From NCBI GenBank assembly GCA_024278175.1, contig JAJRTS010000061.1:1-64000 (forward strand): a DNA stretch of 64,000 nucleotides. The letters are read 5' to 3'. The translations under genes were made by a program, and so were the position numbers. Of the stretch, positions 1,027 through 48,384 are shown piece by piece (the first letter of the stretch is position 1; each line of letters starts with the position of its first letter). Source of the stretch: Gemmatimonadales bacterium (lineage in GTDB: Bacteria > Gemmatimonadota > Glassbacteria > GWA2-58-10). The notes below the pieces were generated by a model. That model saw only the letters and a program-made list of their open reading frames with translations, ran no database searches and was not told the origin of the DNA.

Positions 1027-2601
1027 ATGCCGGCACACACTACGTCGCGGCGGGAATTTATCAGGCGGACGGTCTCCGGGACCGCGGCCCTTGCTCTGGC
1101 CGGCACGCTGCCGGTTTTGTGCGGAGCCGGCGATTCCGGCGCCAGGCCGAATATCGTGCTGATCATGGCCGATGACCTCGGTTACGGCGACCTGGGCTGT
1201 TTCGGCGCGGAGTTGATCTCTACGCCCAATATCGATGCACTGGCGGCCGGCGGAGTTACGTTCACCGACGCCCACGCGCCGGCATCGCTCTGCACGCCCA
1301 CGCGCTACGCGGTGCTTACCGGGCGTTACTGCTGGCGCAGCCCGCTCAAGAGCGGTGTGCTGCAGGGCTACGACCCGTTGCTGATCCAACCCGACCGGCT
1401 CACGATTGCCGGTGTGCTCAAGGGGGCGGGTTATCGCACGGCCTGTATCGGCAAGTGGCACCTGGGCCTGGGCCGCGGCAAGCCTGTCGATTACTCGCAG
1501 CTGCTCACGCCCGGCCCGCGTGCGCTGGGGTTTGACTACTTTTTCGGCATCCCCGCCTCGCTGGACATGCCGCCCTATTGCTGGGTGGAGAACGAGCATG
1601 TGGTCGGCAGCCTGAGCCTGCCCAAGAAGCCGCTCAACACGCTCCAGCGCGAGGGCCCGATGACGCCGGGCTGGCGTGACGAGGAAGTCGGGCCAACGCT
1701 GCTGCGCAAGGCCGAGCGTTTTATTGACGGCTGTGCGCGCAACCACCCGGATGATCCGTTTTTTGTCTACCTGCCCTACCAGGCCCCCCATACACCGTGC
1801 ACCCCGCCGGGCTTTATCGAGGGTCGCAGCGGGGCCGGGGTGCGGGGCGACATGGTGGCCGAACTCGACTGGGCTGTGGGGCGGATCAACGAGGCTCTTC
1901 GGCGGCATGGGTTGGAAGACAATACGCTGGTGATAGTTACCAGCGACAACGGCGCGCTGACCACCGGGCCGCCGTCGTGGGCGGGCGACCCGCCTGAGAA
2001 GTACGACCTGGTCCACAACGGCCATCTGCCCAACGGCCACTTGCGCGGTCAGAAAGCCGACATCTGGGACGGCGGCCATCGTGAACCGCTGATCGCCCGC
2101 TGGCCCGGCCGGATCGAACCCGGACGTACGAGCGGCGACCTGTTTTGCCTTACGGACCTGATGGCAACGTGCGCGGCGGCTGCCGGCGTGGGGTTGCCCG
2201 CCAACGTCGGCGAGGACAGTTTTGATCAGTTGCCAGCCATGACCGGCGGGGCGCACTCATCCGCAGTGCGCGAATCGGTTGTGCATCATTCCGGGGCCGG
2301 GATGTTCTCTTTGCGCCAGGGCAGGTGGAAACTCGTGCTGGGCCGGGGTTCGGGCGGGTTCAGTTCTCCGCAGCTGGTCGAACCGGCAGCGGGCGAGCCC
2401 CGCGGCCAGCTCTACGACATGAGCGCGGAAAACCCGGAGCTGAAAAATCTCTGGGCGGAGAAGCCGGAAGTTGTGAGCGCCCTGCTCGCCTCGCTGGAGG
2501 AAACTGTCAGCCGCGGGCGCAGCACACCGGGGCCGGAGCAGGCCAATGACGGGGCGGTGGATATCTGGGCCGGAGCGAAAAGCAAAGTTGGAGTTCCCTG
2601 A
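1027..2601 (+). CDS. Tat-exported arylsulfatase (Cys-type)
   Basis: A 524-residue sulfatase of the alkaline-phosphatase fold, expected to hydrolyse sulfate esters on glycans outside the cytoplasm. A twin-arginine signal (S7-R-R-E-F-I) leads into a hydrophobic stretch to about residue 30. The N-terminal metal-binding segment (MADDLGYGDLG, D49/D50) and the formylglycine signature C89-T-P-T-R follow, then GKWHLG near 142-147 and SDNG near 306. Cys89 must be oxidised to formylglycine; no maturation enzyme (FGE or anSME) is seen in the window. The start at 1027 has AGGGG just upstream. It converges with a second sulfatase, leaving only 26 bases between them. The substrate cannot be told from sequence. 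Confidence 0.93.
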   Translation: MPAHTTSRREFIRRTVSGTAALALAGTLPVLCGAGDSGARPNIVLIMADDLGYGDLGCFGAELISTPNIDALAAGGVTFTDAHAPASLCTPTRYAVLTGRYCWRSPLKSGVLQGYDPLLIQPDRLTIAGVLKGAGYRTACIGKWHLGLGRGKPVDYSQLLTPGPRALGFDYFFGIPASLDMPPYCWVENEHVVGSLSLPKKPLNTLQREGPMTPGWRDEEVGPTLLRKAERFIDGCARNHPDDPFFVYLPYQAPHTPCTPPGFIEGRSGAGVRGDMVAELDWAVGRINEALRRHGLEDNTLVIVTSDNGALTTGPPSWAGDPPEKYDLVHNGHLPNGHLRGQKADIWDGGHREPLIARWPGRIEPGRTSGDLFCLTDLMATCAAAAGVGLPANVGEDSFDQLPAMTGGAHSSAVRESVVHHSGAGMFSLRQGRWKLVLGRGSGGFSSPQLVEPAAGEPRGQLYDMSAENPELKNLWAEKPEVVSALLASLEETVSRGRSTPGPEQANDGAVDIWAGAKSKVGVP

Positions 2602-2627: not shown

Positions 2628-4085
2628 TTAAGGTGAACCGAGCTTGTGAAGTTCGTACACCTCGTCGGGGATTGTCTTCAGCTTCCAGAACCCGGACTCG
2701 GTCCGGGCACTTTCCATGTTGCGCAAAGCTTCTCCGGCTATGTCCTGGCGAAGAATCGCAAGGTCATTTGTCTCACCAACATCATTTTCGAGATCGTAAA
2801 TTTCCAAAGCTGTTTTCGGGCTATGTTTTAGCGCTTTCCATTTTCCCATGCGAATCGCTTGCCTGGAGGTCAGGCTTCCATGAAACTCCCAATAAAGATA
2901 TTTGTGCTTTTCCTGTTTTTCTCCTGTTAGTGCCGGGAGATACGAAATGCCGTCGATTGATTTCGGCTTGGTCGCTCCCGCGATATCCAGGGCAGTGGGC
3001 AAAAAGTCCCAGAAAGCTGAGATATGGTTCGATATCATCCAGTCTTTTATCCTGGCCGGCCAGCGCGCAACCAATGGCACCCGGATTCCTCCCTCATACA
3101 AATCACTTTTGATTCCCCTTAACGGACCATTGCTATTAAAAAAAGCCGGATCACCGCCATTTTCACGATGAGGTCCATTGTCACTCGTAAATATGACCAG
3201 CGTGTTATCGTCGATTACGAGTTCCTTTAATTTGTCCAGCAACTTACCAACGTACCCGTCCAGCCGGGTGATCATCGCCGCTTGGTTTTTTTGCTGCTGA
3301 GGCCAGTTTTCGTTGGAGTAGGGGGCATCCGAAGGGACTTCCATGCCCTCGCTACCGGCCTCATTATTGGCATGCGGGATTGTATATGAGAGATAAAGAT
3401 AAAATGGATTCCTTTGATTCCTCGCAATAAAGGACAGGGCCTCCCCGGCAAACAGATCGTTTGAATATTGAGATTTCTCAACTGCTACACCCGCGCCGTC
3501 CCCCCTGGGCTCAGCGACCCGATTTCCTGCCAGCGGAATTCTCTCTGCGTTGCGAAATAAAAATTCAGGATATGAATTATGAGCGTGACGTTGGCCCAGA
3601 TAGCCGTAGAAATAATCAAAACCCTGTTTACCGGGGACGCCTTCGGAACCCGGCGCACCCAACCCCCATTTTCCGATCAATCCTGTTTTATAGCCGGCTT
3701 CTTTCGGTAACTTCGCCACCGTTACCGTATTTAACGGGAGTGGTTCATTGCCCATGGGATCGATTTCCCTGTTACCTCTTATGTACGAGTGGCCGGTGTG
3801 AAGTCCCGTCATCAGGCAACAGCGTGAAGGAGCGCAGACCGTGCTGCCCGCGTAATGATCGGTAAACCTGATACCTTCAGCCGCCAACCTGTCGATGTTC
3901 GGAGTTCTGATATATTGCTGGCCATAACAACCCAGATCTCCATAACCCAGATCATCCGCCAGAATAAAGATTATGTTGGTTTTTTCGCTTTTGCCCGCAA
4001 CAGGCTGCGCCCGCAGCAGGCCTGCCGAGGATATTCCCATCACACCTGCAGTCAGATTTTTGATAAATTCCCGTCTTTTTTGCAT
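2628..4085 (-). CDS. Tat-exported sulfatase (Cys-type)
   Basis: A 485-residue sulfatase, distinct from its convergent neighbour. It begins with a KRREF twin-arginine-like signal (residues 3-7) and a hydrophobic segment. Metal ligands sit in ILADDLGYGDLG (D44/D45) and the formylglycine signature is C84-A-P-S-R. GKWGLG and TSDNGPH motifs follow. The ATG at 4085 is preferred over an in-frame TTG two codons earlier, because GGAAAG lies eight bases upstream of the ATG but only two from the TTG. With the neighbouring sulfatase and the GH109-like enzyme it suggests breakdown of a sulfated, amino-sugar-containing glycan. Substrate unknown. Confidence 0.93.
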   Translation of the reverse strand: MQKRREFIKNLTAGVMGISSAGLLRAQPVAGKSEKTNIIFILADDLGYGDLGCYGQQYIRTPNIDRLAAEGIRFTDHYAGSTVCAPSRCCLMTGLHTGHSYIRGNREIDPMGNEPLPLNTVTVAKLPKEAGYKTGLIGKWGLGAPGSEGVPGKQGFDYFYGYLGQRHAHNSYPEFLFRNAERIPLAGNRVAEPRGDGAGVAVEKSQYSNDLFAGEALSFIARNQRNPFYLYLSYTIPHANNEAGSEGMEVPSDAPYSNENWPQQQKNQAAMITRLDGYVGKLLDKLKELVIDDNTLVIFTSDNGPHRENGGDPAFFNSNGPLRGIKSDLYEGGIRVPLVARWPARIKDWMISNHISAFWDFLPTALDIAGATKPKSIDGISYLPALTGEKQEKHKYLYWEFHGSLTSRQAIRMGKWKALKHSPKTALEIYDLENDVGETNDLAILRQDIAGEALRNMESARTESGFWKLKTIPDEVYELHKLGSP

Positions 4086-4287
4086 GGCCAATACTTTCCT
4101 TTTAGGTAAACTAATATGCAGGGCGGTTAGTTATTTTGTAACTTTGCAAAAATCCATCCTTATCAGATATCATCGAATCAGCCCGTAAAACTCATCGCAG
4201 TAGGGGAAACGTCTGGCTCCGGGCTGGATTAGTCCCATTGCTGATGAATCCTTTCGGGTAGAGCGGTAAAGCAAAGAAAGATTGATG

Positions 4288-14605: not shown

Positions 14606-17557
14606 ATGTCCGGAGGCAGAAAAAGCAGGCGCGGGCCGCCAGTTGGGATTAACGCGGCCGCGCTGGTGGAGTGGCTGGGGAGGCAGGAGCGCTACGCCGC
14701 CTCGCTGGTGCATCATCACTACATTCCCGCTCTCGAGCCGGTGTACGGCAAGCTTACGCCTCCGCTGCCGGAAACCCTGGCCCGGGCGCTGAAAAACTCC
14801 GGTGTGCAAAAGCTGTACAGCCATCAGGCGGAGGCGATCGATGCCGTGCGCTGTGGGGAAAACGTGGTTGTATCCACACCCACGGCCAGCGGCAAAACGT
14901 TGATCTACAACCTGCCGGTGCTGGAATCGTGCCTCCGTGAACCGGATACACGGGCGTTGTACCTGTTTCCGCTCAAAGCGTTGGAGCAGGATCAGCAGCG
15001 CAAGATCGAAGAGCTGTCATCTACGCTGGGGGTAAGCGTTACCAGCGCAATCTACGACGGGGACACCACCGCCTATCGCCGCCGCAAAATCCTGGCCGAC
15101 CCGCCCAATATTATCCTGACCAACCCGGACATGCTGCACCTCAGTGTGCTGGGCTACCATCAGAAATGGGAGCGGTTTTTCCGCGGCCTGCGTTACGTGG
15201 TTGTCGATGAGCTCCATACCTACAAGGGTATTTTCGGTGCGCATTTCTGTGCTGTCGTGGCCCGGCTGCGCAGAGTCGCGGCCCACTACGGCGCCGATCC
15301 GCTGTTTATTGCCTCCAGCGCCACGGTGGCTAATCCCGGCCAGTTCGCCCGGAAGCTGTTCGGAGCGCCTTTCCGGGTGGTGGACAGCAGCGGCGCGCCC
15401 TCGGCCGGGCGGCATTTTGTTTTTATCAATCCCCAGGAGATCCGGCCCGCCACCATGGCCGCGCGGCTGATGAGCGATGTTATCGGCGCGGGGCTTAAGA
15501 CTATCGCGTTCACCAAGAGCAGGCGCAGCACGGAGCTGATCCATAGCTGGCTGGTGGGCTCACGGCGCGCTCTGGCCGGACGGGTGAGCAGTTACCGCTC
15601 CGGCTACCTGCCCGAGGAGCGAAGGCGGATCGAGCAGGACCTGGCCGGCGATGTGCTCGACGGTGTGATCAGCACCAGCGCCCTGGAGATGGGGATCGAT
15701 ATCGGCGGGCTGGACGCTTGCCTGCTGGTGGGGTACCCCGGCACCGTGACCCAGACCTGGCAGCGTGGGGGACGGGTGGGTCGTGGGAGCCGCGAGAGCG
15801 TGGTGCTGCTGATCGCCCAGGCCGATGCGCTCGATCAGTTTTTCATGCGCCACCCGGATAATTTTTTCTCCCGTGGCTACGAGCGGGCGCTGGTGGACCC
15901 GGAGAACCCGTATATCCTGGCGGATCACCTGGAATGCGCCGCCGCGGAGATCCCGCTGGAGAGGGCCGAGTTGGAGCAGTTCGCCCAGGGCTGGGCTAAA
16001 GCCACGGCAAAATTGCTGGAGCGGGGCCGGCTGGTGGAGCGCCCGGCCGACGGCCGGGTGTTCAGCGCGGCCCGCTACCCTCATCGGCAGGTGTCGCTAC
16101 GTCAGGCGGGGGAGAGCTATACGATCCTCGACGCCGGGGCCGACCCGCCGCGGAGAATCGGCTCGGTGGGCGGCGGGCGGGTGCTGGCCGAGTGCCATCC
16201 CGGCGCAATCTACCTTCACCGCGCCCGCCAGTACCGGGTGTCGCGCCTGGACATGGAAAAGCGCAACGTCTACGTGGAGCGTTGCAGGGACCCGTACTAT
16301 ACGATGATCAACGCGGAGAAGGACACGGAGATCCTGGAAGTGCTCTCCAGCCGTCCCGAGGGAAATTTCCTGGTCCGCTACGGGCGGCTGAAAGTCACCG
16401 AGCGGATCAAGGGCTTCCAGAAACGCGGTATTTCCGGCGGTGAACTGCTCAGCACCCATCCGCTCGAACTGCCGCCGCAAGTGTTTGAGACCACCGGCTT
16501 CTGGATCGAGATTCCCGCCGGGGTGAGCAGGGGAGTTACGGCCGACGGCGGGCATTTCATGGGCGGCATCCACGCGGTGGAGCACGCCTCGATAGCCATC
16601 TTCGGGCTGTTCGTCCTCTGCGACCGCAACGATATAGGCGGGATCTGTTTCACCGAGCATCCCCAGGTGGGCGGCCCGGCGATTTTCATCTACGACGGTT
16701 ATCCGGGGGGAGTGGGGATCGCCCATGGGGGCTACGGCCGGATCGGCGAGCTGCTAGATGCGGCCCGCCGGCTGATCGGCGAGTGCGACTGCGAGTCGGG
16801 CTGCCCCTCGTGTATTCATTCGCCCAAGTGCGGCAGCGGCAACAAACCGCTCGACAAGCAGGCTGCCGTTGCGGTGCTGGAAATGCTGCTGGGGATCAGG
16901 AATTTGCCCGTGGACGACGAGGCTGAAAGCGAAAAGCCAGTTGACGAACAGCCCCCGGAGCGTGAGGATGAGCCGCCCCCTGAGCGTCTTTTCCCTAAAG
17001 GGAAGAAAATATACGTTTTCGACCTGGAAACCCAGCGCTCGGCCGAGGAAGTGGGCGGATGGCGCAACAAGCACCTGATGCGTGTAAGTTGCGCCGTGCT
17101 TCAGGACGCCGCCACGGGCGAGTTGCTCTCGTTTACCGAGAATGACGTGGACAGGCTGCTGGAGCTGCTGTCAGAGGCCGATCTGGTGGTCGGGTTCAAC
17201 GTGGTCGATTTCGACTACAACGTGCTGCGCGCCTACAGCGCCCGCGAGCTAACGAAAATCAAAACATTCGACATCCTGGCCGACATCCACGGGCGCCTGG
17301 GCCGCCGGATATCCCTGGGAGCGTTGGCAAGTGCGACTCTGGGAGAGCCGAAAAGCGCCGACGGCCTGCAGGCGATCCGGTGGTACCGCGACGGACAACT
17401 GGAAAAGGTGATTGACTACTGCGGTCAAGACGTTATACTTACCGGGCGGTTATTCGAGTTCGGTTTGCGCAACGGCTACCTGCTTTACGAACATCGTGAA
17501 GCAGGCCTCGTCCGTTTGAAGGTGGATTGGGAGCTAAACGACATTCTTAGAGCGTAA
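14606..17557 (+). CDS. DEAD-like helicase (MrfA/YprA type, DUF1998) fused to YprB-like 3'-5' exonuclease
   Basis: A 983-residue protein with two parts. Residues ~60-470 form an SF2 helicase: Walker A STPTASGKT (90-98), DELH (201-204), SSAT, and the C-terminal helicase lobe with GYPGTVTQTWQRGGRVGR. Residues ~620-770 match the DUF1998 region, with a cysteine cluster CDCESGCPSCIHSPKC that probably binds zinc. After an acidic, proline-rich linker (~765-795), residues ~798-975 look like a DEDDy RNase-H-fold exonuclease: DLET, VGFNVVDFDYNVL and YCGQDV. In Bacillus the separate proteins MrfA and MrfB act together in repair of mitomycin damage. Here the pair is one chain. GGAG stands just before the ATG. 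Confidence 0.9.
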   Translation: MSGGRKSRRGPPVGINAAALVEWLGRQERYAASLVHHHYIPALEPVYGKLTPPLPETLARALKNSGVQKLYSHQAEAIDAVRCGENVVVSTPTASGKTLIYNLPVLESCLREPDTRALYLFPLKALEQDQQRKIEELSSTLGVSVTSAIYDGDTTAYRRRKILADPPNIILTNPDMLHLSVLGYHQKWERFFRGLRYVVVDELHTYKGIFGAHFCAVVARLRRVAAHYGADPLFIASSATVANPGQFARKLFGAPFRVVDSSGAPSAGRHFVFINPQEIRPATMAARLMSDVIGAGLKTIAFTKSRRSTELIHSWLVGSRRALAGRVSSYRSGYLPEERRRIEQDLAGDVLDGVISTSALEMGIDIGGLDACLLVGYPGTVTQTWQRGGRVGRGSRESVVLLIAQADALDQFFMRHPDNFFSRGYERALVDPENPYILADHLECAAAEIPLERAELEQFAQGWAKATAKLLERGRLVERPADGRVFSAARYPHRQVSLRQAGESYTILDAGADPPRRIGSVGGGRVLAECHPGAIYLHRARQYRVSRLDMEKRNVYVERCRDPYYTMINAEKDTEILEVLSSRPEGNFLVRYGRLKVTERIKGFQKRGISGGELLSTHPLELPPQVFETTGFWIEIPAGVSRGVTADGGHFMGGIHAVEHASIAIFGLFVLCDRNDIGGICFTEHPQVGGPAIFIYDGYPGGVGIAHGGYGRIGELLDAARRLIGECDCESGCPSCIHSPKCGSGNKPLDKQAAVAVLEMLLGIRNLPVDDEAESEKPVDEQPPEREDEPPPERLFPKGKKIYVFDLETQRSAEEVGGWRNKHLMRVSCAVLQDAATGELLSFTENDVDRLLELLSEADLVVGFNVVDFDYNVLRAYSARELTKIKTFDILADIHGRLGRRISLGALASATLGEPKSADGLQAIRWYRDGQLEKVIDYCGQDVILTGRLFEFGLRNGYLLYEHREAGLVRLKVDWELNDILRA

Positions 17558-34990: not shown

Positions 34991-35159
34991 AATTCAAATA
35001 GTTGGAACTGATCTTTAATTCTGCAGATAGGCCGTTGCGGCAAGTGCAAAGCGGGAAAACCGTTACAGCCCATCGCGCTTGAGAATGAAATATCAAAGCG
35101 GCACTTGCCCGGCTCATTATGCCGCGGCAGGGTTCGTTGCCACCGGGGGGGAACACCAG

Positions 35160-36845
35160 ATGGCCATGCAGTCCACGCAACCGTTGGGCGAGATGCTGGT
35201 TTCGATGGGATTGATCAGCCAGGATCAATTGCAGATCGCGGTAAAAGAGCAACATCGTACCGGAAGCAGGCTGGGTGAGGTGCTGGTCAGTCTGGGATTC
35301 TGCGGCGAGGAGGACATCTCCCGCATCGTGGCCAGGCAGGCCGGTGTGAAAATGATTGATCTGGACAAGCGCAAGCCCGATGCGGCGGCGCTCAAGATGA
35401 TCGATCAGGAATATGCCAGGCGTAACAAGCTGGTTCCGATCAAGCTCGACGGCGACACGCTTACAGTGGCGATGGATAACACGTTCGACGTGATGCTCAC
35501 CGATCAGCTCCAGCAACGCACGGCCAAGTTTATCGAGGTGGTCCAGGCCACCGAGAGCGATATCCTGGATGCGATCGAAAATTTCTATCTCGGCGCCGGG
35601 CGTGACGACGATCAGATAGAGCAACTGGCCCTTGCGGCCGAGCGTGCCGGAACGAGCGAGGGCGAAGTTACCGAGGAATCGGAGTCCACGTTGGTAAAAC
35701 TGGTCGACCAGTTGCTGATCAAGGGGATCAAGAGCGAGTGTACCGACATCCACTTCGAGCCGGACACGAACACTATCCGCACGCGCTACCGCGTGGACGG
35801 AATCCTGCATCAGGGGCCCGCCCTGCCGAAGTCCTTGCAGCAGGCGCTGATCGCCAGGGTGAAAGTGATGAGCAACCTCAACATTGCCGAGAGCCGGTTG
35901 CCCCAGGACGGCCGGTTCCGTTTTTTCATGGGCAAGCGCCAGCTCGACCTCCGAGTGTCAACTTTCCCGACTGTCCACGGGGAGAATGTGGTGATGAGGC
36001 TGCTCGACAAGTCCAAAGTAATCCTGGGCCTTGACAGGCTTGGCTTTACGCCGAAAAACCTGGACAAGTTTAAAAAAGCGATTTCGCGCTCGAGCGGGAT
36101 CATCCTGGTTACCGGGCCCACCGGCAGCGGTAAAACCACCACGCTTTACAGCGCGCTTACTTACCTGAATAACTCGGAACGTAAGATTATCACGCTCGAG
36201 GATCCGGTGGAATACGAGATCCCGCTGATCCGTCAGGGCCAGATCAACGCCAAGGCCGGTTTTACTTATGCCGCCGGGATGCGCTCGATCCTGCGCCAGG
36301 ACCCGGACATCATCCTGGTCGGTGAGATTCGCGACGCCGAAACCGCGGAGATCGCCACCCAGGCGGCGCTGACCGGTCACCTGGTGTTCAGCACCCTGCA
36401 CACAAACGATTCGGCCGGTGCGTTTCCCCGCCTGGTCGATATGGGGATCGAGCCGTTCCTGGTATCGAGCTCCGTGATTGCCGTGCTGGCCCAGCGGTTG
36501 ATCCGCAAAATCTGCCTGGAATGCAAGACAGTCTACGAGCCGACCGGGGAGGACCTGGAAAAACTGGGCCTTAAGGGTAAAACAGGCAAGTACACGTTTT
36601 ACCGCGGCAGCGGCTGCGATAACTGCTCTGGAACGGGCTACCAGGGCCGTTGCGCTATCTACGAACTCATGCCCGTATCGCAGAAGATTGAAAACCTGGT
36701 GTTGCAGCGGTCCGATGGTCCGGTGATCAAAAAGACCGCGATCGAAGAGGGCATGACCACCCTGTTCCATGACGCGTTGATCAAGGCGGTCAACGGCCAG
36801 ACCAGTATCGAGGAAGTGCTGAGAGTAACTTACACGGGTAGCTGA
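35160..36845 (+). CDS. Type IV pilus / type II secretion assembly ATPase (GspE/PilB/MshE-like)
   Basis: A 561-residue hexameric motor ATPase that drives pilin polymerisation from the cytoplasm. An N-terminal MshEN-type domain (LGEMLVSMGLISQDQLQIAV, repeated in LGEVLVSLGFCGEEDI) precedes the core. The core has Walker A GPTGSGKT (319-326), an Asp-box LEDPVEYEI, Walker B ILVGEIRD, a His box TGHLVFSTLHTND, and a zinc site CLEC...CDNC. Plain MshEN domains of this kind bind c-di-GMP in Vibrio MshE. The ATG at 35160 follows a G-rich RBS; the frame is open 27 codons further upstream without one. It is the first gene of the assembly operon. Confidence 0.95.
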   Translation: MAMQSTQPLGEMLVSMGLISQDQLQIAVKEQHRTGSRLGEVLVSLGFCGEEDISRIVARQAGVKMIDLDKRKPDAAALKMIDQEYARRNKLVPIKLDGDTLTVAMDNTFDVMLTDQLQQRTAKFIEVVQATESDILDAIENFYLGAGRDDDQIEQLALAAERAGTSEGEVTEESESTLVKLVDQLLIKGIKSECTDIHFEPDTNTIRTRYRVDGILHQGPALPKSLQQALIARVKVMSNLNIAESRLPQDGRFRFFMGKRQLDLRVSTFPTVHGENVVMRLLDKSKVILGLDRLGFTPKNLDKFKKAISRSSGIILVTGPTGSGKTTTLYSALTYLNNSERKIITLEDPVEYEIPLIRQGQINAKAGFTYAAGMRSILRQDPDIILVGEIRDAETAEIATQAALTGHLVFSTLHTNDSAGAFPRLVDMGIEPFLVSSSVIAVLAQRLIRKICLECKTVYEPTGEDLEKLGLKGKTGKYTFYRGSGCDNCSGTGYQGRCAIYELMPVSQKIENLVLQRSDGPVIKKTAIEEGMTTLFHDALIKAVNGQTSIEEVLRVTYTGS

Positions 36846-36886
36846 GCAGGCGGTACGTCAACGAACGGCAGAGGTGGCGGCAGGCA

Positions 36887-38113
36887 ATGCCCACATACCA
36901 GTACAAAGCGACCAACGACGCGGGAAAAACTGTCAAGGGTGTAATAACCGCTGAGACCGAGGACGCCCTGGAGGAGGTGCTTGATGGGCAGAATCTGTTC
37001 CTGATCAGCGCGTCCGAGACAACCAGAAGCCCGGGCGGTGGTGGAAAAAAAGGCGGCGGCAAGCGGGTTGTACGCTCCAAAATCAAGCGTGCCGACCTGA
37101 TCGCGTTCACTGTCCACCTCTCAACGGTGCTCGGCGCGGGCGTACCGATCCTGCAGGGCCTGGACGACATGGTCGAGGAGACGGAGAACGCCTATTTCAA
37201 GGACGTAATCTCCGGAATCAAAAACGCCATCCAGGAAGGCAGCAGCATCTCGGACTCGTTCGCGGCCCATCCGGAAGTGTTCGGTGAGCTTTATGTCGCC
37301 ATTTTGCGCAGCGGCGAATCCACCGGCCGGGTGGACGAGGTGCTCAAGGAACTGGTGGGGTTTCTGGAGTGGCAGGAGGAACTGATGGGCACGATCAAGC
37401 AGGCCACCACCTACCCGATGATCGTGATGAGCGCGGTGATGGGACTGATCGGGGTCATGTTTGCTTTCGTGCTCCCGCAGTTTCTGAAAATTTTCGACGA
37501 TTTCAATATCGCGCTCCCTCTGCCGACCAGGATCGTGATCGCGATCAGTAATTTTTTCCAGAATTTCTGGTGGCTGATGATACTGGCAATAGTAGCCTCG
37601 GTTTTCGCTTACAGGGCGGCAAACCGCACGCCCCGGGGGCGGATGGCTATCGACAGGATGAAGCTGAAATTACCGATATTCGGCGAGCTGATGCGCAAGA
37701 TCGCCCTCAGCCGGTTCTCCCATTACCTGGCCACCCTGTTCGGCTCGGGTGTGAATATCCTGCAGGCCCTCGAGGTGGTGGAGCGCCTGGTGGGTAACGC
37801 CGTGCTGGCCGATGTGGTGCGCAGGGCGCGGCTCCAGGTGGGCACAGGCCAGTCTATCGCCGGAGCGCTGCGCGAGAGCGGCGAGTTTCCCTCGATGGTG
37901 ACCCGGATGGTCTCGATCGGCGAGGCTACAGGTAATCTGGAGGAGACCCTGCAGAAGGTGAGCGTGTACTACGACCGTGAGGTGCCGCAGACGATCAAGC
38001 GGCTTTTTACAGCGCTCGAAGGTTTGATTATAATCGGTCTGGGGATCGTGATCCTATTTGTCGTGCTTTCTATTATCCTGCCGATGTTGTCTCTACAGGA
38101 GGTGGTCGGTTGA
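36887..38113 (+). CDS. Inner-membrane platform protein (PilC/GspF/MshG-like)
   Basis: A 408-residue polytopic platform protein for pilus or pseudopilus assembly. It has two copies of the T2SSF helical domain (about 75-200 and 275-400), three main membrane helices, and the N-terminal PTYQYKATNDAGKTVKGVI motif shared by PilC proteins. Family motifs include STVLGAGVPILQGLDDM, VSIGEATGNLEETLQKVSVYYD and the terminal IILPMLSL. It lies 41 bases after the ATPase gene, and its stop overlaps the TTG start of the next gene. Confidence 0.95.
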   Translation: MPTYQYKATNDAGKTVKGVITAETEDALEEVLDGQNLFLISASETTRSPGGGGKKGGGKRVVRSKIKRADLIAFTVHLSTVLGAGVPILQGLDDMVEETENAYFKDVISGIKNAIQEGSSISDSFAAHPEVFGELYVAILRSGESTGRVDEVLKELVGFLEWQEELMGTIKQATTYPMIVMSAVMGLIGVMFAFVLPQFLKIFDDFNIALPLPTRIVIAISNFFQNFWWLMILAIVASVFAYRAANRTPRGRMAIDRMKLKLPIFGELMRKIALSRFSHYLATLFGSGVNILQALEVVERLVGNAVLADVVRRARLQVGTGQSIAGALRESGEFPSMVTRMVSIGEATGNLEETLQKVSVYYDREVPQTIKRLFTALEGLIIIGLGIVILFVVLSIILPMLSLQEVVG

Positions 38114-39885
38114 GTCGTAAAAGAGCTAACAACGCCTTTTGGCGCTCGGGTTTCAGCCTGATCGAAGTTATCGTGGCTGTTTCGATCATGGCCGTGCTGG
38201 CCGCGGCGGTCGTGCCGGTGATGTTCAACAAACTCGACCAGGCCCGTTACAAGAGAGTCTTCGCTGATCTGCAGGCGATCTACGAGGCCACGATGGGTAC
38301 ACAGGCCGAGGATTATTTCGGCTTCGTGGGCGATGTGGGCACGTTGCCTGACTCGGTGAACGAGTTGATTGACGGCACGGGTCAGGGCACGGACTGGCGG
38401 GGGCCGTACCTGTCGTTGGCCGGCGGGGCGAAGTTTACGGACGTTTACGGCAACCCCTATGTTATCGACTCCCTTCCAATCCGGGTCCGCAGCTATGGCC
38501 CCGACGGTACGGACAACAACGGGGCGGGCGATGACCTGAGTTACCCGGAGAACCCGCTCTCAACGTTTTCCGGTAACCTGGAGGCCCAGGTCTATATCAA
38601 CGGGCGGCTGATAAGCGACGCAACCACCGAGCAGGTTTCGGCGAGCATTGCATATTCGAACGACGGTACTCCCGCCACTCTGGCGCTGACGTTCAACCTC
38701 GGGAATCAGCAGTTCGAGCATACAACCGCCGTGCATCAGGGCAAGCACGTGCTGACTGTAATAGCCGGAAAGACCGGCCAGGACCCGGCCACCACGCACA
38801 AGGAAGTGGTGACGATCCTGCCGGGGGTCATTACCAAAACGCAGGTTTCGTTCGCGGACGCCGACTACATGACCCGCCTGGACACCGACCTCAATGGCAA
38901 CGGCATCCCGGATCGTCTGGAGGACATGGACGGCGACGGGATTCCCGACGACATGGATCCTGATATCGACGGCGACGAGACGCCCAACGCGATTGACCCC
39001 GATCCATACGATCCCCTGGTGACCGGTGGTGGTGGTGGGGCGACCTCTCCGCAGGTGACAGCCGTCACTCCCAGCTACGGCAACCAGGGGGATACGAACC
39101 TGCTGCTGACTATCGACGGGGCTTATTTCGCGACCGGGGCGACTGTTACGTTCAGCGGAACCGGGATTACGGTGCTTACCAATCCGGCTACTTTCGTCAG
39201 TTCCTCGCAGTTAACCGTTTCGGTCAACATCTCCGGCTCGGCCGCCACGGGTTTGCGTAACGTTACAGTCGATAATACCGACGGAGGTTCCGGTACCGGT
39301 AACAACCTGTTCGAAGTGCTGGCCAGCGGGGGTAGTCCTTCTCCGATAATCACCCTGGTGGTGCCGGATAACGCCAACCAGGGTGAGACCAACCTGACCG
39401 TAACTATCCAGGGGCAGAATTTCCTTACCGGCCCCACGGTTACTTTCAGCAACGGCAATATCTCGGTCAACAGCACAACTTTTGTCAACAGCAGCCAGGT
39501 GGACGTGGATATCACCGTGCCCGGCGCATCGGCCACCGGGGCGGGAACTGTGAGGCTGACCAACACCGACGGCAATTTCGACGAGGCCACCTTTACGGTC
39601 AATCAGACCGTGCCGAATATCAGCAACGCCACTCCTAATAATGCCAACACCCTGACCAATAACGTCTGGGTCGATATTACGGGGACGAATTTTCTCAGCG
39701 GGTTTACCGCCTCCACCAGCGGCAGTCCATTGGCAGTGGATAACACGTCGTTTATAAGCTCATCGCAGGTCCGCGTCAGGGTCGACTGCGGTTGGACGCT
39801 GAGGGATAAGCAACGCTATATAATAGTTACCAACCCCGGAGGCGGAGCCGACAGCACGCTCTTCACGATTAACGGCTGGTTATAA
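38110..39885 (+). CDS. Large modular pseudopilin with calcium-binding repeats and TIG-like domains
   Basis: A 591-residue protein, two to three times longer than a normal pseudopilin. Residues 1-14 are the prepilin leader, cut after G14 (SG/FSLIEVIVAVSIMAVL, Glu19 at +5). Residues ~40-130 keep a GspG-like head. Residues ~258-302 are acidic DxDxNGNGIPD / DMDGDGIPDDMDPD repeats of thrombospondin type-3 form, expected to bind Ca2+. The rest (~310-590) is three TIG/IPT-like immunoglobulin-fold units, each ending in an SSSQVxV strand. The start is TTG in a TTGA overlap with the platform gene, with AGGAGG seven bases upstream. It may be a tip or adhesive subunit. Confidence 0.85.
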   Translation: MSRKRANNAFWRSGFSLIEVIVAVSIMAVLAAAVVPVMFNKLDQARYKRVFADLQAIYEATMGTQAEDYFGFVGDVGTLPDSVNELIDGTGQGTDWRGPYLSLAGGAKFTDVYGNPYVIDSLPIRVRSYGPDGTDNNGAGDDLSYPENPLSTFSGNLEAQVYINGRLISDATTEQVSASIAYSNDGTPATLALTFNLGNQQFEHTTAVHQGKHVLTVIAGKTGQDPATTHKEVVTILPGVITKTQVSFADADYMTRLDTDLNGNGIPDRLEDMDGDGIPDDMDPDIDGDETPNAIDPDPYDPLVTGGGGGATSPQVTAVTPSYGNQGDTNLLLTIDGAYFATGATVTFSGTGITVLTNPATFVSSSQLTVSVNISGSAATGLRNVTVDNTDGGSGTGNNLFEVLASGGSPSPIITLVVPDNANQGETNLTVTIQGQNFLTGPTVTFSNGNISVNSTTFVNSSQVDVDITVPGASATGAGTVRLTNTDGNFDEATFTVNQTVPNISNATPNNANTLTNNVWVDITGTNFLSGFTASTSGSPLAVDNTSFISSSQVRVRVDCGWTLRDKQRYIIVTNPGGGADSTLFTINGWL

Positions 39886-39890
39886 GGCAT

Positions 39891-40469
39891 ATGCGTGTAA
39901 AATACATCATATTCGCCGTACTGGGCCTGGTCGGTGTGCTGTTCGGAGGCTGGAACTGGATGAACTATTTCAAGGGGCAGGCCGGGGGCAGTGCTCCCCA
40001 GCTCCAGGCCGTCCGTCCGCAGCCCAACCCGGAAATAGCGCAGTTGGAGCAGCAGGCAGCCCCTGTGCCGCAAGCGGCGGAGCAGGATACAGGCGGCGGG
40101 CAGCGTACGCCGCCGGGCGCTGAAATGGAGTTTCCCGATACCCTGGGGCGCAACCCGTTCCTTACGCCCGAGGAAATCCGCCTGATCGCCAGTGGCGAGC
40201 TGATCGAGGAACCCCCTCCGCCGGTGGAGGCGGGTCCGCTGCCGGAGTATAAAATATCGGCCCTGTTGAAAGATAATGTCAGCGGAGATTTTGTGGTGCT
40301 GATCGGCGGCAGGACCTACCGTCAGGGTCAGATGATCGGCCAGGAGGAAGTGGTGCGGATCACGGAAAACTCGGTGGAGCTGGAATCCCAGGGCGGCCTG
40401 AGGCGGACATTGAATATCGGCGGCAAGCAGCCCGACAGAGGTGTTTCCATCAAGCTGCGAAAAAACTGA
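39891..40469 (+). CDS. PilP/GspC/MshK-like assembly protein
   Basis: A 192-residue inner-membrane-anchored periplasmic protein. One N-terminal membrane helix (about 5-22) is followed by a proline- and glutamine-rich linker (30-75), the LGRNPFLTPEE motif typical of PilP/GspC proteins, and a small beta domain (about 110-190; YKISALLKDN, GRTYRQGQMIGQEEVVRI). It would link the inner-membrane PilMNO complex to the secretin. It begins five bases after the modular pseudopilin. The exact family (PilP, GspC or MshK) cannot be fixed by eye. Confidence 0.8.
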   Translation: MRVKYIIFAVLGLVGVLFGGWNWMNYFKGQAGGSAPQLQAVRPQPNPEIAQLEQQAAPVPQAAEQDTGGGQRTPPGAEMEFPDTLGRNPFLTPEEIRLIASGELIEEPPPPVEAGPLPEYKISALLKDNVSGDFVVLIGGRTYRQGQMIGQEEVVRITENSVELESQGGLRRTLNIGGKQPDRGVSIKLRKN

Positions 40470-40486
40470 AAGCGGGTGTTTGTACG

Positions 40487-42121
40487 GTGGCCAATTCAGG
40501 CAGGGATAATACGCGAGGCAAGAGTGGAAAAAAGTTCTCGCCGGCCCAGTTGCTCGAACAGTTGGGGCTCTACCGTAATACGGGCAGGACCGTGATCGGG
40601 ATTCAACTTGCGGGCGACATCTTTCGGATCGTGGAAATCGACCGTAAATCGAATCCGCCGCGGATCATCAATTTCTCGGCGATCGATCCGTTGATGGAGA
40701 ACACGGCCGAGGCCGCCGACCAGGTACTGGGTTTGCTCTACGAGAAGGAGATGAGCGGCCGTCTGGTCCACGCCACGGTCTGCGACCAGGGGGCCGAGTT
40801 GCGCCAGGTCAGCCTGCCCGTGCTGGCGAAAAATGAAATGCGGGCGATTGTAAGGCGTGAGCTGAAAAAAATAGTTCCCGACGCCAAACCGGCGGAAGTC
40901 GTTTTCGACTACTGGTTCGAGCGCAGTGTCAAGAAGGGCCGTAAGACCGATGTGCTTGTGGGTGTGATTTTCCGCGAAAGCTCCCAGCGGATTATCAAGC
41001 TGATGGAGCAGTGCGAGCTGGACACCGAGCTTGTGACCACCGTGCCGATGTCGCTGATAGCCTGCGTGGGGTTGATGGGGGGAAAATACAGCGGCGGTAT
41101 CACCGCCTCGGTCCATCTTGAGCGCGGCAGAAGCTATCTGGTTATTTCCAATAAAGGCAACTGGGTATTCTCCCGCGAGTTCCAGTCCGTGCTGAATAAG
41201 GAAGAGGCGCAGCAGCAGGACCAGGATACATCGCTTACGGCCAGGCGCAAGTTTGCCAGTGCGCGCTACATGGCCGATCAGGACAAGCTGCTGGTCGAGG
41301 TCAACCGCAGCCTGCTCTATTTCAAACAGCGTTTCCGCGGAGAGGGAGTAGCCTGCGCCGTGCTCAGCGGTGAGGCGTTCAACCTGGAGGATGTGGCCGG
41401 TGCCTTCCAGCAGAACCTTGGTATCGAGGGTGTTGTGTTCTCGCCCATGGAGGCGTTCGATACCTCGCAGATGGGCGACAGGGCGGCCAAGCTCGGCAGA
41501 ATTTTTCCTTCGCTCTGTCTGCCTGTGGGCGCCGCGATGCAGACCTTGCGCCAGGCAAAGCTCAATTTCGTGCCCGAGGCCTATATCAACCGCTACAAGG
41601 AACGGGCGCGCAAGTTCATCGTGGGAGCCGCCTCCGTGGTGCTGATAATCGTGCTGGGAGTTGGGTATCTGCTGATTCGCAGCAGCAGGGTGGAGTTGGA
41701 GGAAATGCTGGCCCAGAATGATCAGGGAAGAGTGATTGCCGAGATGACCGCCAAGCTGGATGATATCACCTCGGTGGCCACGGAGCGTAAACTGGCCCGC
41801 ACTCGGCGCGAGTTTCTTGAACGCTTCACTCAAGAGGGCGACCCGGTGGATGAGATGCTGATAGCGCTGAGCTATCTGGTGCCCGAGCAGATGACGCTCT
41901 ATCGCATGGTTGTCAATCAGGACTCCATCCGGACGGCGGAAATCTATGGCACTGTGGAGGGTAGGGGGATCGCCGCCAACGACAGCACTTTTAACGTGTT
42001 TTATCTCAAACTGGCGAAATCTGGTCTGTTTCTTAAAGTAGCCGAGCCGGAAATATCTTCCAGTGTCAAAGAAGGGGTTCATACCCTTAATTTCAAGGTG
42101 GACTGCCAGTTGCCTACGTGA
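40487..42121 (+). CDS. Fused PilM-PilN assembly protein (MshI-like)
   Basis: A 544-residue protein that joins two parts usually encoded separately. Residues ~35-365 form a PilM-like actin-fold cytoplasmic domain (TVIGIQLAGDIFRIVEID at its start, later LLVEVNRSLLYFKQRF). A single membrane helix lies near 383-405, and a PilN-like periplasmic domain follows (about 405-540; coiled-coil then a ferredoxin-like fold). In type IV pili PilM binds the PilN N-terminus, so fusion preserves this contact. The start is GTG with a weak RBS. A long frame on the other strand is only a shadow of this gene. Confidence 0.88.
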   Translation: MANSGRDNTRGKSGKKFSPAQLLEQLGLYRNTGRTVIGIQLAGDIFRIVEIDRKSNPPRIINFSAIDPLMENTAEAADQVLGLLYEKEMSGRLVHATVCDQGAELRQVSLPVLAKNEMRAIVRRELKKIVPDAKPAEVVFDYWFERSVKKGRKTDVLVGVIFRESSQRIIKLMEQCELDTELVTTVPMSLIACVGLMGGKYSGGITASVHLERGRSYLVISNKGNWVFSREFQSVLNKEEAQQQDQDTSLTARRKFASARYMADQDKLLVEVNRSLLYFKQRFRGEGVACAVLSGEAFNLEDVAGAFQQNLGIEGVVFSPMEAFDTSQMGDRAAKLGRIFPSLCLPVGAAMQTLRQAKLNFVPEAYINRYKERARKFIVGAASVVLIIVLGVGYLLIRSSRVELEEMLAQNDQGRVIAEMTAKLDDITSVATERKLARTRREFLERFTQEGDPVDEMLIALSYLVPEQMTLYRMVVNQDSIRTAEIYGTVEGRGIAANDSTFNVFYLKLAKSGLFLKVAEPEISSSVKEGVHTLNFKVDCQLPT

Positions 42122-42130
42122 GGACAGACC

Positions 42131-42676
42131 ATGACGATCCCTTCTGGAATCCGTAAAGTCATTCTGCCGCTGGCGATGCTGTTTATTTTCGGCGCGGCCT
42201 GGTTCGGGCTTTACAAGCCGGAGCTGGCGAAAATATCGGAATACAATAAAAAACCGGCCGCCAGCCGCCAAAAGATAGAGCAACTTGTACGGGAGTTGAA
42301 CGAGTACGACCCGCCCACCGCTGACGAGCGCGCCGAGTGGAAGGCGCTTGAGCGGGAATTCAGCCTTAAGTTGCCCCGTGGAAAGCAAATCACGGAACTG
42401 TACTCGCTGCTCTCCCGGTTGGCTGTCAACCTGGGCTGCGAGGATTTCAACCGGATGGAAATCGAGAATTCGGACACCGTTTACACCTCCGGCGATATTC
42501 CCCGGCGCGGTTTCGACATCCAGCTCGATTTCTCCTGCGATTTCCACTCGCTGAGAGAATATATAAACGGGTTGAAAGGCGCCGACAGGCTGATCGAAGT
42601 GGTGCGGCTGGAGGTTGACCGCAGCCTGCCGCTGCTTAACGTTAAGATGGTGATCAGGAGCTACTACGCTCCATGA
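42131..42676 (+). CDS. PilO/MshJ-like assembly protein
   Basis: A 181-residue inner-membrane protein with one N-terminal helix (about 10-27), a coiled-coil (about 30-75) and a periplasmic ferredoxin-like domain ending in LEVDRSLPLLNVKMVIRSY. This is the architecture of PilO, the partner of PilN. GAGGAC precedes the ATG. The gene begins nine bases after the PilM-PilN fusion, which supports assignment by position. Sequence similarity alone is weak, as is usual for PilO. Confidence 0.78.
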   Translation: MTIPSGIRKVILPLAMLFIFGAAWFGLYKPELAKISEYNKKPAASRQKIEQLVRELNEYDPPTADERAEWKALEREFSLKLPRGKQITELYSLLSRLAVNLGCEDFNRMEIENSDTVYTSGDIPRRGFDIQLDFSCDFHSLREYINGLKGADRLIEVVRLEVDRSLPLLNVKMVIRSYYAP

Positions 42677-42870
42677 TCATCCCGGGGGGTGGAAAATATT
42701 TCCTCCCCTGCTGGTATTATCTGCCGCAATTGCACCCGTGGCCGATATTATTGACCTTTAATGCCGTGGTTCGCTTTTTGCTCTCATCGCCGGTGTATGG
42801 ATGCTCTAAAAGCCGCAACGGTGCGGTTTTCCCGAAGATGGAACGATAATCCGAGACCGGAGTTGATACG

Positions 42871-44568
42871 ATGATCGCCAGTATGACTGAAAGCTTCTCC
42901 CGCTCCAGGCCGCTCAGGTCCATCGGTTTGATGCTGGTCCTGCTGATAGCCGTCTCCAGCCTGTCGTGCCGAAGGCAGAGTTTGCGCCGGCCAGCGCCGG
43001 GTTCAGCCGCGGCCGGTCCGGCCAGGATCAGCCTGCAGGATCAGCCGGAGGAAGGGGAAATGGAAGAACTGGTGCTGCCCCAGCTGGAGCAGGAAAAGCA
43101 CGCGGACTATGCGTTCAATCGCGCTGAAAACGTATTCGATGTCAATCTGGACAATGCTACGATGCAGGAAGCCCTGCAATCGATGTGCGATATGATGTCG
43201 TACAACCTGGTACTGGATCCGCAGATCTCGGACTCGCTGACTCTGCATCTGCGCGACATCACTTTCAACAAGTTCCTGGAAATCGCTATCGGCAACCACG
43301 GTTACTACTACCGCATCGAGGACAACTTTCTATACGTGGACCTGCCCGGGCTGGAAACGCGGATTTTCCATCTCGATTACCTTAACGGCAGCCGTCAGTT
43401 ACAGGGCCAGATGAATATCACCGGCATCACCGGCGATGCCAGCGGAAACCTGATACCACAGAGCAACACTCAACTTCTGACCCAGAGCATCACCAACATC
43501 TGGGCCGATATCCGCAACAGCCTGGTGGAAATAGTCCTGGGCCAGGGAGTTCAGCTTCTGGCCGCGATTACCCCCGAGGGCAGTTACGCCGGCAACGACG
43601 AGAACAGCGGCTACCGGCTCGTGGTGGAACCCAACAGCGGCGTGATCCAGATTACGGCCAGCCGTGAGGTGCTCGCCAAGGCGGAATCATTTCTGAAGGC
43701 TACAGAGGCCAGCCTCCAGCGCCAGGTGCTGATTGAGGCTCGCTTTATCGAAATTAACCTGAGTGAGTCTTTCGACGCCGGTCTGGACTGGTCGGTTATC
43801 CCTAAGCTGACCGGTGTCTCCAACCTGGGCGGCGGTCTGGCCAACGGCCAACTGGTGGCGCAGGCGCTCAACCCGTCTTCCCGCGAGTTCCAGATGGGCG
43901 TATCCAACGATAACATCACCGCCATCATGACCGCTATCTCCAAGCACGGCAAGGTCAACGTGCTGCAAAGCCCGCAGGTCAGTACGCTGAACAACCAGCC
44001 CGCGGTTATCAGGGTCGCGCGTAACGAGACTTTCTTCCAGCGTACGGAAACCCCGGGCACGCCCGCCACGGCTACCAGCCCGGCAACGCAGTCGGTGATC
44101 AACTACTTACCGATTCAGCAGCCCACCGGCGTGGTGGTCAACCTGACTCCGCAGATCGGCGACGACGGGACGATTATTATGGCCATCCGCCCCTCGATCA
44201 CCACGATCGCGGCGGTAGCTACCAGCCCCGACGGCCTGAGCACGAGCCCGATCACCGATATTCGCGAACTGGACACTGTCGCCAAGGTCCACCACGGCCA
44301 GACGATTATCCTGGCCGGTCTGATCCAGGAGCGCAAGACCAATGACGCTAAGGAAGTCCCGTTCCTCTCAAAGCTACCCTTAGTGGGGAGCCTGTTCCGC
44401 CAGGTCAAGGAGGACCGTCAGAAGGTTGAACTGGTTATCCTGCTGACGCCATTTATCAACTACAGCAGGTCGAATTCAGAAATCGCCAATGAAGCGGGCC
44501 AGCTCCCGCGGTACAAGGAAATTGCCAGAAACTACCGGATTTCCGAGGGTGAATTTAAAAGCCAGTGA
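42871..44568 (+). CDS. Outer-membrane secretin (PilQ/GspD/MshL-like)
   Basis: A 565-residue secretin, the outer-membrane pore of the machine. A signal peptide (about 1-34) ends in a cysteine, but the preceding SLS is a poor lipobox. An STN-type N domain (VFDVNLDNATMQEALQSMC) is followed by the secretin core with VLIEARFIEINL, VNVLQSPQVSTLNNQPAVI, VVNLTPQIGDDGTIIMAI, and the signature VHHGQTIILAGLIQERK...VPFLSKLPLVGSLF. VLQSPQVSTLNNQ followed by an aromatic ETFF is MshL-like. GGAG lies eight bases before the ATG. A 194-base gap separates it from the PilO-like gene and may hold an internal promoter, which I cannot identify. Confidence 0.95.
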   Translation: MIASMTESFSRSRPLRSIGLMLVLLIAVSSLSCRRQSLRRPAPGSAAAGPARISLQDQPEEGEMEELVLPQLEQEKHADYAFNRAENVFDVNLDNATMQEALQSMCDMMSYNLVLDPQISDSLTLHLRDITFNKFLEIAIGNHGYYYRIEDNFLYVDLPGLETRIFHLDYLNGSRQLQGQMNITGITGDASGNLIPQSNTQLLTQSITNIWADIRNSLVEIVLGQGVQLLAAITPEGSYAGNDENSGYRLVVEPNSGVIQITASREVLAKAESFLKATEASLQRQVLIEARFIEINLSESFDAGLDWSVIPKLTGVSNLGGGLANGQLVAQALNPSSREFQMGVSNDNITAIMTAISKHGKVNVLQSPQVSTLNNQPAVIRVARNETFFQRTETPGTPATATSPATQSVINYLPIQQPTGVVVNLTPQIGDDGTIIMAIRPSITTIAAVATSPDGLSTSPITDIRELDTVAKVHHGQTIILAGLIQERKTNDAKEVPFLSKLPLVGSLFRQVKEDRQKVELVILLTPFINYSRSNSEIANEAGQLPRYKEIARNYRISEGEFKSQ

Positions 44569-44618
44569 GCGCGTTTCTCTCACCGGCGATCCGGGCCAAC
44601 GGATGCCTGAAGAGGACT

Positions 44619-48142: not shown

Positions 48143-48369
48143 ATGGCTGTTATCAAAAGTTTTGTCTTTTTGCAAGGGAAAGAGAATCCTGAGAATGGTC
48201 CGGAAAAACTTCCGCTGTTCGTAGAATATCGCAGGGGCTTGCCCTTGTGTTCGCCCGTTAACCTGTACGCCTGCCGTATACTTTGGGACGAGGCGCGCCT
48301 CGCCCCAAAGAGAGAAGGAACGGCCCTTCGAAGAATGATCAAGCGGACAGTTGTTTCGAGAGCTGCTCT
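48143..48369 (+). repeat. Dispersed palindromic repeat, copy C (MITE-like), abutting uvrC
   Basis: A more diverged copy. The conserved internal blocks (GTTTTGTCTTTTTGCAAGGG and the AAGCGGACA near the right end) align with the other three units. The left terminal repeat is degraded (ATGGCTGTTATCAAAAG). The central arms are damaged: the left arm no longer pairs well, while the right keeps a perfect 14-base palindrome centred on GCGC. It ends only 15 bases before the uvrC GTG, so uvrC transcription must start in or before the element. Confidence 0.82.
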
Positions 48370-48384
48370 AGTGGGGAATTCCCG

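Follow-up and report, generated by a model that had tools for sequence, protein, structure and literature searches.

In Bacillus subtilis, the helicase MrfA (YprA) and the exonuclease MrfB (YprB) act epistatically in a pathway that is specific to mitomycin C and does not depend on UvrABC (PMC11194089). MrfB is a 3'-5' exonuclease of the DEDD-His type with a TPR tail and His258 as catalytic histidine, and its contact with MrfA is evidenced only by two-hybrid data and a docking model, in which the free 3' end lies close to the MrfB active site (PMC11194089). Passages of a 2025 preprint (PMC12458937) describe MrfA as a 3'-5' helicase, attribute a "broad phyletic distribution" to MrfAB, and mention in one clause YprA helicases "fused to" MrfB homologues; complementation is reported there to require alleles that are closely related. 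We analysed a gene that encodes both kinds of domain in one polypeptide, located in the first 64,000 nucleotides (the window) of contig JAJRTS010000061.1 from a Gemmatimonadales bacterium of the Candidatus Glassbacteria.

A helicase and a DEDD exonuclease in one reading frame

The gene is a single uninterrupted frame from ATG to stop encoding 983 aa (Table 1), and is present in the genome as one copy with no internal stops. An earlier note on this DNA had read it as a complete SF2 helicase with the four-cysteine DUF1998 cluster joined to an RNase-H-fold DEDD exonuclease, and had proposed a domain search, structure prediction of the C-terminal region and a survey of homologues. This reading was borne out by the frame itself, by Pfam, by the match to a solved YprA structure and by AlphaFold. 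DEAD, Helicase_C, MZB (formerly DUF1998) and RNase_H_2 were all matched. The motor motifs are a Walker A sequence TASGKT containing K97, DELH (201-204), SAT (238-240) and GGRVGRG (388-394), and zinc cysteines C727, C729, C733 and C736 are present and invariant in 59 fused homologues. The structure of B. subtilis YprA (PDB 6znp) matched residues 38-739 of the 983-aa protein with E 4.5e-163, and the closest curated NCBIfam model, TIGR03817 (DECH_helic), scored 728.6 bits, below its curated cut-off of 874.1. With RecA1, RecA2, winged helix and MZB all present, the protein belongs by sequence to the MrfA/YprA helicase family.

Table 1. Features of the window, with positions counted from its first nucleotide and residues from the start of the 983-aa protein
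Feature	Residues	Position	Strand	Evidence
MrfA/YprA-type helicase and DEDDy-type exonuclease, whole gene (983 aa)		14606..17557	+	Frame, Pfam, PDB match
RecA1 / DEAD domain, Walker A K97, DELH 201-204	72-242	14819..15331	+	Pfam DEAD 3.4e-30, motif positions
RecA2 / Helicase_C	295-393	15488..15784	+	Pfam 5.8e-12
Winged helix, WHD_HRQ1	430-500	15893..16105	+	Pfam 4.8e-11
MZB (MrfA Zn-binding; PF09369), cysteines 727/729/733/736	659-737	16580..16816	+	Pfam 1e-21, cysteine conservation
Disordered tether	773-792	16922..16981	+	pLDDT <50 in full-length model, variable length in homologues
C-terminal DEDD-Tyr exonuclease, catalytic D806, E808, D870, Y938, D942	801-983	17006..17554	+	RNase_H_2, conservation, AF2, Foldseek
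Convergent sulfatase-like gene		1027..2601	+	Judged by eye
Convergent sulfatase-like gene		2628..4091	-	Judged by eye
Type II secretion / type IV pilus-like run		35079..46430	+	Judged by eye
uvrC		48283..50244	+	

The C-terminal region exceeded the RNase_H_2 (PF13482) cut-off of 22 bits both within the whole protein (E 1.9e-5, 25.1 bits) and as an isolated nuclease domain (E 8.2e-7, 29.6 bits). The motifs DLET, VGFNVVDFDYN and YCGQDV, already recognised in the earlier note, are located at residues 806-809, around 863-871 (GFNVVDFDY) and at 938-943, and the chain ends 41 residues past the last catalytic Asp. Modelling of the C-terminal domain with AlphaFold (AF2), using an alignment of 76 homologues, gave a mean pLDDT of 96.3 and a fold resembling the proofreading exonucleases of polymerases. 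Modelling of the full-length chain with 59 fused homologues gave a mean pLDDT of 89.0, with helicase and nuclease both confident and values below 50 between them. The fusion protein is predicted to consist of two rigid modules joined by a flexible tether of about 20 residues. The tether is acidic in this protein, as had been described, but its charge varies among homologues, and what holds across the set is only its length and the absence of conserved sequence: 84 homologues have 53-153 residues (median 61.5) between the final zinc-cluster Cys and DLET.

The fusion was present in all six genomes of the family to which the window belongs, the proteins of the five relatives being 64-81% identical to the one studied here. 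In two of the six genomes the helicase is split across contigs and the nuclease is still in frame with the end of the helicase. Among 298 sampled genomes of the phylum the nuclease domain was confined to these six, and of 60 relatives searched only the five family members gave a helicase match over all or nearly all of its length. A nuclease-only scan of genome contigs yielded 78 loci, and in 57 of these, from several phyla, the helicase lies upstream in the same frame (one, L024, was counted as fused with a helicase match that starts just upstream of its stop-to-stop frame). Three loci were cut by a contig end, and the remaining 18 are stand-alone frames, mostly from Nitrospirota and Verrucomicrobiota. 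By record title, fused carriers include Desulfobacterota-type bacteria, Myxococcota, Acidobacteria and Methylomirabilota, and among them is the isolate Desulfacinum hydrothermale DSM 13146. The window comes from a fragmented genome of 113 contigs, which could raise the suspicion that an assembly error or frameshift had joined two neighbouring genes. However, 84 homologues, drawn from many assemblies and including that of the D. hydrothermale isolate, have both parts in one open frame; we rejected an artefact on this recurrence in independent assemblies and consider its probability negligible. The helicase-nuclease fusion is genuine and old, and it is spread widely among bacteria.

The stand-alone DEDDy exonucleases (L074-L077, L080, L082, L085-L089, L091, L094 and L097) are 178-275 aa long. 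Their genomes mostly lack the helicase (14 of 17 tested), suggesting that the nuclease alone has uses of its own; the genome of L091 also holds a fused copy.

The nuclease and its relation to MrfB

The first Asp, the Glu and D870 are invariant in all 81 nuclease domains aligned, as is the last Asp in the 80 domains that extend far enough to include it. The residue four before the last Asp is Tyr in 78 of these domains and His in two; among fused homologues, the catalytic position holds Tyr in 81 of 84 and His in two. Since the carboxylates are invariant and Tyr occupies the position four before the last Asp in 78 domains, we class the fused nuclease as a predicted DEDD-Tyr enzyme (DLETQR, EVGGW, GFNxxxFDY, YCxxDV) with its catalytic motifs intact. 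The catalytic residue of the exo-II motif is D870 and not D868, the latter position being Gly in the sister genome L005. In the predicted models D806 and E808 are on strand 1, and D870 and Y938/D942 are on helices, arranged as in DEDD enzymes, giving the DEDDy layout of DxE on strand 1, D on helix B and YxxxD on helix C. The best Foldseek matches of the domain were family-B DNA polymerases (E 4.6e-7, TM 0.64), with a match that, judged by its length, covers their exonuclease part, and also T7 DNA polymerase. The proofreading domains of family-B polymerases and of T7 DNA polymerase are DEDDy exonucleases.

In one fused homologue, a 991-aa frame (L171, G391:C15), two of the catalytic carboxylates are gone (FMNLETQ, YCRRNV), leaving an apparently dead nuclease on the helicase; the sister L172 is intact. 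This loss suggests that degradation is perhaps not the sole use of the domain.

The earlier note had called the nuclease YprB-like and the whole a fusion of MrfA and MrfB, in which case the Tyr would be a minor substitution within MrfB. Several results are consistent with this. Both nucleases fall in the Pfam family RNase_H_2, passages of PMC12458937 term the fused domains MrfB/YprB homologues, and two fused members have His at the Tyr position. We assembled a reference set of nine MrfB sequences (PDB chain 8UN9 and genes adjoining split helicases), which share DTETTG or DLETTG, FNGxxFD and HNxxD. Profile-profile comparison of the fused domain with their alignment gave 82% probability (E 1.1e-5) with the catalytic columns aligned, a figure that had been only 10.6% with a single MrfB sequence. 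The fused nuclease and MrfB are predicted to be remote homologues within one superfamily.

Other results set the two nucleases apart. The MrfB core scored 137.6 bits against RNase_H_2, whereas the fused domain scored 29.6, with two polymerase-exonuclease Pfam families close behind at about 21 bits. All true MrfB sequences aligned have the catalytic His. Pfam searches of the 983-aa protein and of the domain found no TPR domain after the nuclease, and the fused domain is without the N-terminal RHG-containing region typical of MrfB. A PDB-wide profile search with the nuclease domain gave nothing significant, MrfB 8UN9 included, the best match being a diDNase-type exonuclease (E 0.23). In the nuclease tree all MrfB rows grouped together with 100% support, separated from the DEDDy domains, whether fused or stand-alone, by a very long and saturated branch that does not pin down the nearest family of the fused domain. 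In the same tree the stand-alone rows were scattered over several weakly supported places, favouring neither fusion of a stand-alone nuclease nor later fission. Together with the separate clade formed by the helicases of true MrfAB pairs (below), these results make a plain MrfA-MrfB fusion quite improbable. As judged from sequence, the exonuclease lineage is not MrfB but a distant relative that, in the genomes surveyed, occurs in its place and never alongside it.

Alternation with MrfB and two helicase clades

We surveyed 247 genomes from the phylum to which D. hydrothermale (G315) belongs, a different one from that of the window, for the helicase and for both nucleases. The DEDDy nuclease was found in 69 genomes and a strong MrfB, scoring 124 bits or more where the match below it had 49 bits, in 32, and 104 genomes carried the helicase at E <= 1e-80. 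Among these 104 carriers, 68 have the DEDDy nuclease, 29 have MrfB, none has both and seven have neither, counted over related genomes so that the 97 cases with a nuclease are not independent trials and a Fisher p-value computed from them should not be read literally. No MrfB was matched in the genome of the window or in its five family members. Since the two DEDD nuclease lineages alternate as partners of one helicase family, this suggests that they do the same job, namely degradation in the 3'-5' direction coupled with unwinding.

The helicases themselves fall into two clades. In a tree from a quick search (midpoint root, SH-aLRT support, no bootstrap, L148 left out), the 16 MrfB-partnered rows, including B. 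subtilis, formed one clade, and the fused helicases with six partnerless ones formed the other, with 100% SH-aLRT; the fused helicase does not group with B. subtilis MrfA or with MrfB-partnered helicases. True split MrfAB pairs were found in the same kinds of bacteria, in the helicase clade of B. subtilis MrfA. The single case without a clean fit is L148, a long branch that was placed beside the fused side in an earlier tree. At this locus (L148/L119, G341:C17) an MrfB fragment is directly upstream of a 761-aa helicase, with the gene order reversed; its placement is uncertain.

Six helicases of the fused type (L149, L153, L154, L155, L156 and L170), which form a clade, have neither nuclease nearby, and neither a DEDDy domain nor a strong MrfB was found in their genomes, suggesting that the helicase can act without a nuclease. 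A seventh genome with neither, L150, was rejected as a solo helicase, as its locus is cut at a contig end. Four further candidates (L158-L160 and L164; G548, G501, G525 and G449) were rejected as partnerless because MrfB is present elsewhere in their genomes: mrfA and mrfB sit on separate contigs or some 9 kb from each other, and MrfAB therefore need not be adjacent genes.

We put forward tentatively, as a scenario that falls a little short of probable, that YprA-type helicases gained a DEDD exonuclease twice independently, once as the separate DEDDh protein MrfB and once as a DEDDy domain in cis, and that the two are strict functional alternatives. The fusion would then be a second, undescribed version of UvrABC-independent adduct repair in Desulfobacterota, Glassbacteria, Methylomirabilota, Acidobacteriota and others.

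Proposed role and comparison with known systems

We favour, as the somewhat more probable reading, an "unwind and chew" enzyme of DNA repair, made as one chain, that stands in for MrfA and MrfB with its own helicase clade and nuclease lineage. The SF2 helicase of the YprA clade, expected from its homologues to translocate 3'-5' on single-stranded DNA and to carry an MZB canopy, would open the duplex, and the tethered DEDDy-type 3'-5' exonuclease would degrade the exposed 3' end. Most simply this would be the tracking strand trailing the motor, since both activities would then share direction and strand: a 3'-5' motor would leave the 3' end of the tracking strand behind it, and the tethered exonuclease could follow the same way. 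The fusion would take the place that the separate MrfA and MrfB fill in other bacteria. We infer its enzymatic activity, polarity, strand choice and repair role, as well as bulky-adduct or mitomycin-type substrates, from its homologues.

The window also contains uvrC, and two UvrA-class genes are found elsewhere in the genome, making nucleotide excision repair likely in this bacterium. The fusion would accordingly add to excision repair, as MrfAB does in B. subtilis. With UvrA and UvrC encoded, it is not obvious that the bacterium needs a further pathway for adducts. The presence of UvrA and UvrC, together with the separate helicase clade, could indicate a different repair or housekeeping system that acts, for instance, on replication or recombination intermediates and not on adducts or mitomycin damage. 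We regard this as unlikely, as strict alternation with MrfAB within one phylum suggests an equivalent role.

A role in anti-phage defence was also considered, since YprA-type helicases of the DISARM, Druantia and ARMADA branch are likewise paired with nucleases, sometimes C-terminally fused, according to passages of PMC12458937. However, the fusions described there carry Vsr or inactivated RNase H domains, PADLOC matches of the present protein were limited to the helicase core, its nearest solved relative is the repair protein YprA, and the adjacent genes (DUF1015, HD-domain, SerA and PurA) are of housekeeping and not of defence type. Searches for membership of DISARM, Dpd, Druantia or ARMADA found no full-length match to a defence helicase model and no operon partners at the locus. 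We consider a defence function very improbable. Elsewhere in the window, by eye, are two convergent sulfatase-like genes with secretion-type leaders, and a run resembling type II secretion or type IV pilus genes (GspE-like ATPase, GspF-like, pseudopilin-like, secretin-like and ExeA-like).

The fusion architecture as such is already known from PMC12458937, whose fused YprA helicases, assigned to the branch that serves DNA repair, very probably include the architecture in the window. In the passages concerned, the clause gives neither sequences nor residues, names no nuclease class and describes no distribution, and the representative of the branch is a two-gene pair. The earlier suggestion that this locus extends the pathway beyond Firmicutes holds for a fused helicase-exonuclease in a lineage of Gram-negative type, the Candidatus Glassbacteria; the occurrence of MrfAB outside Firmicutes was, by the same passages, known before. 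In the part of the literature searched, the text of the preprint included, we found no biochemistry or genetics of any fused member, and no mention of the DEDDy nature of the nuclease, its separation from MrfB, the matching helicase clade, the alternation with MrfAB or the solo nuclease. The separate DEDDy lineage and its strict alternation with MrfB appear to be undescribed in these papers.

Proofreading domains of family-B and T7 DNA polymerases, the best structural matches, have the DEDDy active site in common with the fused nuclease, but share only about 15-22% identity with it, and the fusion has no polymerase. S. aureus DinG also combines a DEDD 3'-5' exonuclease and an SF2 helicase in one chain, and both activities are needed for resistance to mitomycin, formaldehyde and crosslinks (PMC12345164). 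Unlike the protein studied here, it is a 5'-3' helicase with a DinG-type motor and an N-terminal DEDDh nuclease, and is an independent fusion. B. subtilis MrfA (6znp) shares the helicase core, winged helix and four-cysteine MZB domain over residues 38-739, but lacks the C-terminal tether and nuclease and belongs to the well-supported other clade. MrfB (8UN9) is alike in its DEDD superfamily, Pfam family and supposed job beside the helicase, whereas its catalytic His, TPR and N-terminal RHG region have no counterpart in the fusion, which has Tyr; this cautions against annotating such proteins as MrfA-MrfB fusions. For the question of how MrfA and MrfB cooperate, one chain with both domains removes doubt as to whether they meet, and makes their coupling testable. 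Should MrfAB and the DEDDy fusion prove to be genuine alternatives, the essential design would be a YprA motor with a 3'-5' exonuclease behind it, and the type of nuclease would be interchangeable.
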